A stretch of DNA of 64,000 nt from Candidatus Latescibacterota bacterium (lineage in GTDB: Bacteria; Krumholzibacteriota; Krumholzibacteriia; WVZY01): assembly GCA_011772205.1 (NCBI GenBank), contig WVZY01000008.1, positions 186,001 through 250,000 of the forward strand, read 5' to 3'. Positions 12,888 to 15,851 of the stretch are shown piece by piece. A program made the position numbers and the translations under genes. Numbering within the stretch: position 1 is the first letter of the stretch; every line of letters begins with the position of its first letter. The notes under the pieces were generated by a model. The model searched no databases. It had not been told where the DNA came from and saw nothing but the letters and a program-made list of their open reading frames with translations.

Positions 12888-14111
12888 TCAAACTGCTCCA
12901 AAAGAGAGAAGCCGTACTTGCTCCCGAGCGAATTCCACCCACTCATCATCAGGATACAACTCTATGAGCTTTTTGTAACAACGCGCAGCTTCATCTATAT
13001 CATCCAACGTGTTCCAATAGAGGTTTGCCGAGCGCAATAGAGCAAACGGTGCCTCTTTGTGCAGAGGGTAGCGTCTCGCGAAGTTTTCGTAAGCCCTTAT
13101 CGCAAGCTTATGCTTGAGATTTCGCTCGAGGCCGAATGCGAGATCGAGATGCTTCCCAGGTGAGAGCACAAAGTTCGGGAAACCATGGAGCGCTTCCCTA
13201 AAGAGATCTTCCGCCCGCCCCCGCTGTTTCTTCCGCAGGAGACGTTCGCAGGCTTTTCTGTAGTTCTCATTCGCGCCTTTGGTGTCCCCGACGATGATCT
13301 TCGCCCTGGCCAGCGTGGCAACGGCGTTGTCGTCGTCGGGGCGCAACGAGAGATAATCTATCAACTCCCCCTGGGCGGCATACGCTTCGCCCTTTTCGAC
13401 GTATCTCTGCGCCCTGCGCCAGATGGTTTCGATCTTGGCTCTTCTATGCTCGCCCACTAGGAGGACCAGCCCAACTGCCCACATAAAGCCTGCGATGTGA
13501 GTGATATAAGCGACGTTCGACGCGACGCCGCCCGCCTGCACCAAACCGCGGACGAGCTGCAGTACAAACCACAGGGCGATGGCGAGCAGCGCTGGTATTT
13601 CGACTCTTCCAGCCCGGTTGTACGCCTGCAGTGGCATGAACGCCCAGAAAGCCACTTCCAAGCGGCTGGCATAGAATCGTACGGCAAATGCTCCCAAAAT
13701 CCCGGAGATCGCTCCCGAGGCACCAATGATACCCACATCCGGTTGGTGTAAGACATGGATGTTAAACAGCCCCTGGAGCACATTTCCCAAAGCAGACGAC
13801 GAGAAAAACAGTATGGCGTAAAAGACCGCTCCCATACGATCCTCGACATACCTTCCAAAGACCAGCAGGAAAACCATGTTGCTTATCAGATGGAGGTACC
13901 CAAAATGGAGAAAGGCAGCGGCCATAGCTATAAACAGGTTGGATTGCCCAGGAATATAGATGAGATTGTAAAAATCGACCGGCAGCTGCCCGGCATAGTA
14001 CCGGTTCCCGAAGAAAATAGCGAGACAGAGGAAACAGCAGAAGTATGTTATAGCAGGGAACTTACGGAGCTCCTCATCGATCCTCACAGGTATGTAATAA
14101 AAGAAGTACAT
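12888..14111 (-). CDS. Rhomboid-family intramembrane serine protease with C-terminal TPR-like repeats
   Basis: Residues 1-220 form a rhomboid membrane domain: the L1-loop-proximal HxxxN motif (His74...Asn78 in GYLHLISNMV), the catalytic Gly-x-Ser-Gly at Ser132 (IGASGAISG) and catalytic His205 in YITHIAGFMWA, so the Ser-His dyad is complete. Residues ~225-400 are soluble helical repeats of TPR type (for example AQGELIDYLSLRPDDDNAVATLARA and the A..CYKKLIELYPDD module), placing a protein-binding module on one face of the membrane. Rhomboids cleave membrane-spanning substrates; the substrate here is unknown. It is separated from the upstream barrel gene by a strong terminator. The start has only a weak SD. 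Confidence 0.9.
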   Translation of the reverse strand: MYFFYYIPVRIDEELRKFPAITYFCCFLCLAIFFGNRYYAGQLPVDFYNLIYIPGQSNLFIAMAAAFLHFGYLHLISNMVFLLVFGRYVEDRMGAVFYAILFFSSSALGNVLQGLFNIHVLHQPDVGIIGASGAISGILGAFAVRFYASRLEVAFWAFMPLQAYNRAGRVEIPALLAIALWFVLQLVRGLVQAGGVASNVAYITHIAGFMWAVGLVLLVGEHRRAKIETIWRRAQRYVEKGEAYAAQGELIDYLSLRPDDDNAVATLARAKIIVGDTKGANENYRKACERLLRKKQRGRAEDLFREALHGFPNFVLSPGKHLDLAFGLERNLKHKLAIRAYENFARRYPLHKEAPFALLRSANLYWNTLDDIDEAARCYKKLIELYPDDEWVEFAREQVRLLSFGAV

Positions 14112-14283: not shown

Positions 14284-15549
14284 CTAGAAATGATAAATGG
14301 CGCTGATTCGGGAAATCGGGACATCATCAGCGGGCTGCGCTGGCTCACGAATCCCATAATTATAGTCATAGGCGGAGTGACCGGTCAGCCAGTATCCCAC
14401 GCTGAACGGAAGCTCCGGACCCAGCTCCATGTCGATGTCGAACTCGGCGATATGGAAGCCGGCTCCCAGGAACCAATCAAAGAATGCATCCGTGTAGTCG
14501 ATCTCGGAGGCATCGACATATGTATCCGTACCCTTCACCAGTGACTTGATCGCTCCGACGCGCACTGTCAACCATGGCTTCACAGCGGACTCAAGGGCCA
14601 GACGGAAGGTTGGGAGGTAGAACGCTGTGAACTCGGCGAGAGCGGCGCCTAACGTATCAGGAACCGAGGGCTCCCAGCTCATTCGCTGGACCTCGACGCC
14701 AAAAACGAGCAGGTTGTTCGTGTTCACATCGAGATTCAGAGCGGCACCGATCCGGAACGCGTTGATTTTATCTCCGTGAGATCCAAAAGTCAGATCCGGA
14801 TTCTCTAGAGCAAACTCCAGGAACTGGAATTCGGCGAATGGAACGAGCGTCGCATAATCTTTCCACTCGTAGAAAATACGCAGGGCACCATCGAAAACGA
14901 GCTGCTTATCGAAATCCGACGTGTCCGGGGTGATGAACGATCCGTACGGGATGTTCTCGCCGCCAGCGACACCCACCGTGAATGCAACGTCCATGTAAGC
15001 ACTCTCGCCTGCATCGGCGCGGATCCCGCCACCAAAGGTCGTGAACCTCAGATCAGATGTCAGATCCGCAGTCTGGATATCCGCATCAGATCGTGTGAAT
15101 CCCAGGCCAACGGCGAGTTTCTCGAACTCCTTACCCCACTGGATGGCGAACTTGTTCACGGGGAAAGCACGGCCGACAAATTGATCATAGATGTCGAGCA
15201 TTTCAATGCTCGCGAACACGGGGTTCACGATGAAGAAGCTGTTGTCCGTAACGTTGTCCATCAGGAAAATCCCCCAGGTGCCGTATTTGCCGTTCTCACC
15301 ACATGAGTGTGTGATACCGAGCGCCTGATCGATAGCGGAGAATCCGTTGTACGTACCCAATTCCGCCATCACCATGTTGCTGTAAGAAGGGAGTGTGGCG
15401 TACCAACGGAAAATGTTGGAGTCATCGTTGATGTAGTCTCCAGAGCGGGCAAGTGAGTTTTGCCTCGCCGTTGTGGCGAGAGCAATAGGAGCCGCCATCG
15501 CAACAACGAGCAGCGAAACGACGCACACTTTGCCGAAAGTTTTAAACAT
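14284..15549 (-). CDS. Exported outer-membrane beta-barrel-like protein, family not identified
   Basis: A 421-residue protein with a clear signal peptide (MFKTFGKVCVVSLLVVAMAA, cleavage near ALA-TTARQ). The mature part is rich in alternating aromatic and hydrophobic strands and ends in SRISAIYHF, a C-terminal Phe as used for BAM recognition of outer-membrane barrels. After the signal it has GDYINDDSNIFRWYATLPSY. I do not recognise a named family; a porin-like or surface protein is the likely class. The start at 15549 follows AGGAGG by six bases; the open frame upstream to 15645 is not needed. The gene has its own promoter, a long structured leader and a very strong terminator, suggesting a highly expressed, separately regulated product. 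Confidence 0.8.
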   Translation of the reverse strand: MFKTFGKVCVVSLLVVAMAAPIALATTARQNSLARSGDYINDDSNIFRWYATLPSYSNMVMAELGTYNGFSAIDQALGITHSCGENGKYGTWGIFLMDNVTDNSFFIVNPVFASIEMLDIYDQFVGRAFPVNKFAIQWGKEFEKLAVGLGFTRSDADIQTADLTSDLRFTTFGGGIRADAGESAYMDVAFTVGVAGGENIPYGSFITPDTSDFDKQLVFDGALRIFYEWKDYATLVPFAEFQFLEFALENPDLTFGSHGDKINAFRIGAALNLDVNTNNLLVFGVEVQRMSWEPSVPDTLGAALAEFTAFYLPTFRLALESAVKPWLTVRVGAIKSLVKGTDTYVDASEIDYTDAFFDWFLGAGFHIAEFDIDMELGPELPFSVGYWLTGHSAYDYNYGIREPAQPADDVPISRISAIYHF

Positions 15550-15679
15550 CTCGAACCTCCTCATCCAGGAACAGAGGGCCTTGGAGGAAACCGGCTTCTC
15601 CATTCCTAAAATTCGATTTATTTCGATTTCGAATACTGCATACACTAAAGGTGTCCGAATCCTACCGCCCGACGGCGGT

Positions 15680-15700
15680 TCACCTAACGTAGTGATGCAT
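15680..15700 (-). CDS. Putative leader peptide MHHYVR
   Basis: Six codons ATG CAT CAC TAC GTT AGG then TGA, directly behind the AGAAGGAGGTGAT box that is fully complementary to the 3' end of 16S rRNA. The spacing from AGGAGG to ATG is only two bases, which is tight; a GTG one codon earlier is also in frame. A small stable hairpin follows the stop codon. Translation is inferred only from these signals. Confidence 0.25.
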   Translation of the reverse strand: MHHYVR

Positions 15701-15822
15701 CACCTCCTTCTGCAAACGGACCCACGGTGACTTAGCCCAAGTAATAAAAAAGAACAACGATTGTATTGTTAAAACTGGATACAGAAATCCCCCCCATTCT
15801 TCCTCCCACACTACGATCGTGG

Positions 15823-15851
15823 AAATTACCGACACGCCAAAATCTTGTCAA
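15823..15851 (-). promoter_or_regulatory. Sigma70-type promoter of the barrel gene
   Basis: Minus strand TTGACA (15851-15846), 17-bp spacer, TAATTT (15828-15823). The -35 is perfect and the -10 matches three of six. It would give a leader of about 265 nt. Confidence 0.55.

Follow-up and report, generated by a model that had tools for sequence, protein, structure and literature searches.

The barrel gene and its leader

The window analyzed here, a stretch of 64,000 nucleotides from Candidatus Latescibacterota bacterium (contig WVZY01000008.1), encodes a PopA-like outer-membrane barrel protein behind a long leader. The barrel matched NF053618 weakly in the profile search (E 3.9e-13; 49.5 bits, below the cut-off of 150). 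Its best Foldseek match was 9gf0, the PopA of Bdellovibrio (E 1.3e-11; TM 0.59/0.73, with 0.73 by target length), in a comparison made on a predicted model with a mean pLDDT of 71. No match was found for the barrel in Pfam, nor for its sequence in the PDB. PopA is described as pentameric and as a major outer-membrane protein in Bdellovibrio (PMC12228718), and the barrel is presumably a major envelope protein in its own organism as well. Positions 12888-14111 of the window, which adjoin the barrel gene downstream, encode a protein with a rhomboid protease domain and, C-terminally, TPR repeats. The window was assigned to a Candidatus Krumholzibacteriota: the close named relatives mostly bear this name, and others were labelled Latescibacterota, Chitinivibrionia, UBP1 or simply 'bacterium'.

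The features of the locus are as follows (window coordinates, all on the minus strand).

14284..15549, minus strand: PopA-like outer-membrane barrel gene, 421 aa, downstream of the leader; assigned by NF053618 and the fold match
15556..15561, minus strand: real Shine-Dalgarno (SD) sequence AGGAGG, with the ATG of the barrel gene at 15549
15664..15679, minus strand: 6-bp hairpin ACCGCC-GTCG-GGCGGT, directly following tract 2 on its 3' side; also in the predicted centroid fold
15680..15700, minus strand: six-codon ORF ATGCATCACTACGTTAGGTGA (MHHYVR*), whose ATG follows GGAGG after 2 nt; the ORF as such is not conserved
15692..15703, minus strand: perfect 12-bp palindrome GTGATGCATCAC
15699..15711, minus strand: tract 2, AGAAGGAGGTGAT, a putatively non-initiating anti-SD complement; predicted duplex -20.0 kcal/mol
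15786..15799, minus strand: tract 1, GAATGGGGGGGATT, also complementary to the anti-SD, weaker, and close to the 5' end; predicted duplex -13.6 kcal/mol
15823..15828, minus strand: -10 box TAATTT, spacer 17 nt; recognized from the sequence and the comparison of leaders
15846..15851, minus strand: -35 box TTGACA of the leader promoter; the exact TTGACA is common to related leaders

All of the elements placed by the initial annotation about 150 nt before the barrel ATG (anti-SD complement, six-codon ORF, hairpin and palindrome) were present, and so was the real SD. Transcription is predicted from the promoter boxes to start at about 15816; the consensus promoter scanner did not list the -10 box TAATTT. 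At the gathering score, Rfam identified only a tRNA in the window and nothing in the leaders searched.

The anti-SD complement was evaluated with the 16S tail GGATCACCTCCTTTAACG of one class relative (G014), the sole tail found in the class; no 16S rRNA was found in the own genome. Tract 2 had been described as complementary to the whole anti-SD tail, which holds for 11 Watson-Crick pairs, while one further pair is G-U. A predicted duplex energy of -20 kcal/mol was reached by only three sites among 128,000 positions of the window. The exact 13-mer occurred once in the 4.13-Mb genome, and the 16 further sites with one mismatch were mostly inside ORFs or immediately before ORF starts. The strength of tract 1 in this leader was matched by 8 of 100 shuffles.

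Conservation of the anti-SD-complementary tracts

Leaders of related barrel genes were compared in two phyla. The Krumholzibacteriota set, drawn from searches of 38 and of 80 genomes that gave matches in 28 and 44 of them, respectively, comprised 28 leaders with an intact gene start, distributed among the families f1 (6), f2 (1), f4 (17) and f8 (4). The same leader plan was first seen in Eisenbacteria at three barrel loci, and 25 usable leaders were obtained from this class of 47 genomes, 27 of them with a match. Left out were L020, L030 and loci repeating genes already counted, G041 (truncated gene), L187 and L188 (second tandem copies), L185 (start missing), further tandem copies in G102, G104 and G112 (including L189), and L178, an Eisenbacteria first copy with no TTGAC in the promoter window, which also lacked a tract 2-type sequence. 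The distant families f5 and f6 were examined separately from the 28 leaders. Most or all of the compared genomes are metagenome assemblies. The 53 leaders are related by descent and therefore do not represent 53 independent events.

The promoter was shared by both groups. An exact TTGACA was found 282-363 nt before the ATG in all 28 Krumholzibacteriota leaders, followed by a TA-containing -10 box. In Eisenbacteria, TTGAC was located 249-278 nt before the ATG in 25/25 leaders, by selection, and TTGACA in 24 of them. A CGCC-like discriminator behind the -10 box, searched as a loose pattern, was detected in 18/28 and 15/25 leaders, respectively, and is not claimed as conserved.

Tract 2 began 137-190 nt before the ATG in every Krumholzibacteriota leader, and its predicted anti-SD pairing was stronger than that of the real SD in 28/28 (-12.7 to -22.0 against -10.3 to -14.6 kcal/mol; means -17.1 vs -12.2), in position windows that were set after the leaders had been inspected and that favour pairing. 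In 26 of the 28 leaders, at most 5 of 100 dinucleotide shuffles of the same leader were as strong. Tract 1, centered at about -228 to -303, was predicted to pair better than the real SD in 22/28 leaders and exceeded dinucleotide shuffles in 17, the own leader not being among the latter. Tract 2 is thus solid, and tract 1 is solid for the group and not for each member. None of 100 permuted anti-SD sequences fitted either tract as well.

The Eisenbacteria leaders displayed GAAAGG[A/G]GGTG beginning about 106-147 nt before the ATG in 23/25 cases, with a predicted pairing of -18.6 to -21.0 kcal/mol; the exceptions L176 and L179 have lost tract 2. Two Eisenbacteria genomes (G102:C93 and G104:C446; L176, L179, L187, L188) carry four tandem PopA-like barrel copies each, and in both it is the leader of the best-matching copy from which the tract is lost.

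Over both phyla, all six core positions of tract 2 paired with the anti-SD in 49/53 leaders. The columns opposite anti-SD C contained G in 53, 53, 52 and 52 of the 53 leaders, and the middle column opposite anti-SD U contained A in 26, G in 25 and T in 2. This is the pattern that anti-SD pairing would predict if G-U is allowed, and it is taken as support and not as proof, since the register was chosen to favour pairing. An internal partner for tract 2 was not found above chance (3/53 leaders in the strongest 5%). Matches to the 13-mer with at most two mismatches are expected 1.7 times per 64 kb, which by itself would permit a chance match in the window. That explanation is refuted by the conservation of position and pairing in two phyla and has a negligible probability.

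A non-ribosomal partner of the tract, either a CsrA-type RNA-binding protein or a small RNA whose seed is CCUCC, would be consistent with the recurring GGA motifs, and CsrA was encoded in 21 of the 38 genomes searched. However, it was absent from all seven f1/f2 genomes, the own genome included, where the tract is most complete. Moreover, the extension GGTGAT matches the 16S tail, and permuted targets fitted worse. Such a partner is therefore very unlikely.

Among 19 loci of more distant barrels, whose start sites are uncertain, a comparably strong tract was detected in L025 (f5) and L101 (Eisenbacteria), and weaker tracts at -91 to -191 in L021, L028, L103 and L108; the other 13 had no tract in that range. 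The L025 leader carries GGCAAGGAGGTGAA at -91, which suggests that the element reaches beyond the families counted.

Start codons, the six-codon ORF and the palindrome

Start codons (ATG, GTG and TTG) were counted 4-10 nt behind the tract 2 core, a range fixed in the counting script, and 0/53 leaders had one. In control windows of equal width, a start codon occurred in 139/462 cases downstream and in 180/475 cases upstream. Part of the deficit could be due to the base composition of the sequence following the tract, which is GGGG in many Eisenbacteria. Behind tract 1, a start codon at this spacing was present in 2/34 cases.

Under the leader-peptide proposal, the six-codon ORF would be translated, and its translation, or stalling on it, would control the barrel gene. 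An ATG stands directly behind the tract in 5/6 f1 leaders, and the f2 leader shows a one-position shift; altogether six of the seven f1/f2 leaders have an ATG 2-3 nt behind the tract core, and L012 has none. An ATG 2-3 nt behind an SD core is too near for normal initiation. The ORFs opened by these six ATGs are 4, 4, 5, 6, 27 and 42 codons long, and a terminator-like site was looked for in the region and not found. Given the absence of a start codon at productive spacing from all 53 leaders and these variable lengths, a leader peptide is highly improbable and that proposal was dropped. The palindrome GTGATGCATCAC, which had been suggested as an operator bound by a repressor, is perfect in the window. 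It was, however, kept in only 1/53 leaders and is situated about 115 nt into the expected transcript, so that this function is extremely improbable. The third proposal, a ribosome stand-by element, is the one favoured by these data, as an anti-SD complement that no usable start codon follows has been kept in both phyla.

Hairpins and predicted folding

At the place of the 6-bp hairpin, a stem was present in all seven f1/f2 leaders (2/200 shuffles as strong), and the hairpin after tract 2 in f4/f8 was matched by 0/200 shuffles. In Eisenbacteria, a hairpin 3' of tract 2 was not conserved (131/200 shuffles as strong); most of these leaders have a long hairpin 5' of the tract. The alignment of orthologous leaders that had been recommended as a check thus gave a divided result. 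The SD-like tract is conserved and the mini-ORF is not, and the hairpin is conserved in Krumholzibacteriota and not in Eisenbacteria.

The 3' module of the f4/f8 leaders contains two helices with one strand in common. In one of them, the real SD CAGGAG pairs with UUCCUG, the core pairs being formed in 20-21 of 21 leaders; this helix is by itself weak evidence because it is almost invariant. The other, GGAAC/GUUCC, displayed marked covariation: together with its inner stem it showed 19 double-changed cells vs 7.7 in shuffles (0/500 as high) and exceeded all slid controls, in an alignment and structure that were picked after inspection. The outer helix was paired in 74% of cells and was broken in a minority of leaders. 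The mutually exclusive helices share the UUCC strand (A4 columns 36-40, 84-90 and 123-128; e.g., L010:1372-1482), and a nearly invariant internal loop, UNAUAUAGA, adjoins them. The helix pair and loop may constitute a bistable switch or a site at which a protein or ligand binds. A covariance model (R1) built on the 3' module matched strongly 21 times in 21 genomes, in every case at the barrel. It did not recognize the f1/f2 leaders. The nine weak matches were taken as chance because the best four, which were examined, were not located before a barrel start.

Predicted accessibility differed among the elements. Over the 28 Krumholzibacteriota leaders, the two tracts had mean unpaired fractions of 0.52 and 0.49, compared with 0.31 for the real SD. 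In the own leader, the real SD (0.67) and tract 2 (0.63) were both predicted to be mostly unpaired, and occlusion of the SD is thus not predicted. In Eisenbacteria, predicted openness was 0.37 for the tract, 0.31 for the SD and 0.37 as the leader mean. The mean fold z-score over 53 leaders was -1.23, and the fold of the own leader was no better than shuffles (z 0.01).

Proposed function of the leader

Judging from the pairing pattern, 30S subunits probably dock on tract 2 through the anti-SD. Because there is no start codon at productive spacing behind the tract, a docked 30S is not expected to initiate there. With moderate confidence, we propose that the leader carries a conserved non-initiating 30S docking site, acting in standby or loading and possibly also as a shield of the mRNA. 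Tract 2, and more weakly tract 1, would pair with the 16S anti-SD more tightly than the gene's own SD does. The docked 30S would be held near the weaker and in several families occluded real SD, and would move there when it opens. While sitting on the leader, it would also protect the long untranslated region from RNase E-type decay. Overall, a major envelope protein would be synthesized steadily and at a high level.

Standby and stabilization may act together. In a narrower explanation the tract would be a stabilizer only, of the STAB-SD or ompA type: a 30S bound to it would stop nucleases that approach on its 5' side, without supplying the real start. There are precedents, as the STAB-SD of cry3A is described as a non-initiating, 30S-bound SD near the 5' end (PMC4113751), and the ermC and ompA mRNAs are reported to remain stable without start codons when their SDs are strong (PMC7509114). 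Tract 1, which in most Krumholzibacteriota leaders is close to the 5' end, would agree with this. On the other hand, it is the tract more distant from that end which is the stronger of the two. RNase J (TIGR00649) scored over the cut-off in 0/38 genomes, the own genome included, with weak matches only in 11, while RNase E/G was over the cut-off in 35/38. Furthermore, according to a review, a bound ribosome protects at a distance far less efficiently in E. coli than it does in Bacilli (PMC3997798). Stabilization alone is therefore rather unlikely.

In a more elaborate version of the docking model, the tracts would serve as decoy SDs for spare 30S subunits, and their occupancy would tip a bistable 3' module in which the UUCC strand pairs either with the upstream GGAAC or with the real SD. 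Envelope synthesis would then track ribosome supply and growth rate. We consider this version clearly unlikely.

A distant SD-like sequence that surpasses the real SD in predicted pairing and has no usable start, kept in two phyla, is natural evidence of selection for docking of 30S away from a start. The leader also offers a portable test of standby vs stabilization in bacteria that have RNase E and in which no RNase J was detected. No such leader was named in the literature searched, and the element is a candidate for a new leader RNA family that spans two phyla, in lineages known almost solely from metagenomes.

Comparison with known systems

In sequence arrangement, the leader resembles the STAB-SD of cry3A and its relatives in Bacillus, which is likewise a leader SD-like sequence complementary to 16S rRNA without a translation start. 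The known case depends on RNase J1. This feature was tested here and RNase J was over the cut-off in none of the 38 genomes, and for this reason the leader was not filed as a STAB-SD. In addition, the main tract lies 100-190 nt before the ATG, at a large distance from the 5' end, and is accompanied by hairpins and a second tract; the location of a STAB-SD close to the (processed) 5' end of the mRNA is predicted for tract 1, near the expected start, and not for tract 2.

GGA is the CsrA-binding motif, and the leaders resemble CsrA-regulated ones in having several GGA motifs, one of them over the SD. They differ in that no CsrA was found in the seven f1/f2 genomes, and the leader was not classed as a CsrA target.

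In the ompA leader of E. coli, the stabilizing SD is the gene's own SD, whereas a separate upstream tract is found here. Both leaders are long and precede an outer-membrane protein that is (ompA) or presumably is (the barrel) a major one, and ompA mRNA is reported to be stable without its start codon when the SD is strong (PMC7509114).

The tisB mRNA of E. coli is described as having a standby site that precedes a sequestered RBS by about 100 nt (PMC7708055). The leader would share with it 30S docking at a comparable distance in a structured RNA, as the anti-SD pairing suggests. Standby in tisB relies on S1, a 5' pseudoknot and a single-stranded stretch instead of an SD, whereas the putative docking site here is an SD that surpasses the real one in predicted strength. 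Sequestration of the RBS is predicted in f4/f8 and not in the own leader. Distant standby modules are reported to support high translation (PMC3936740). Standby fits the distance of the tract, the weaker real SD, the occluded SD of f4/f8 and these precedents.
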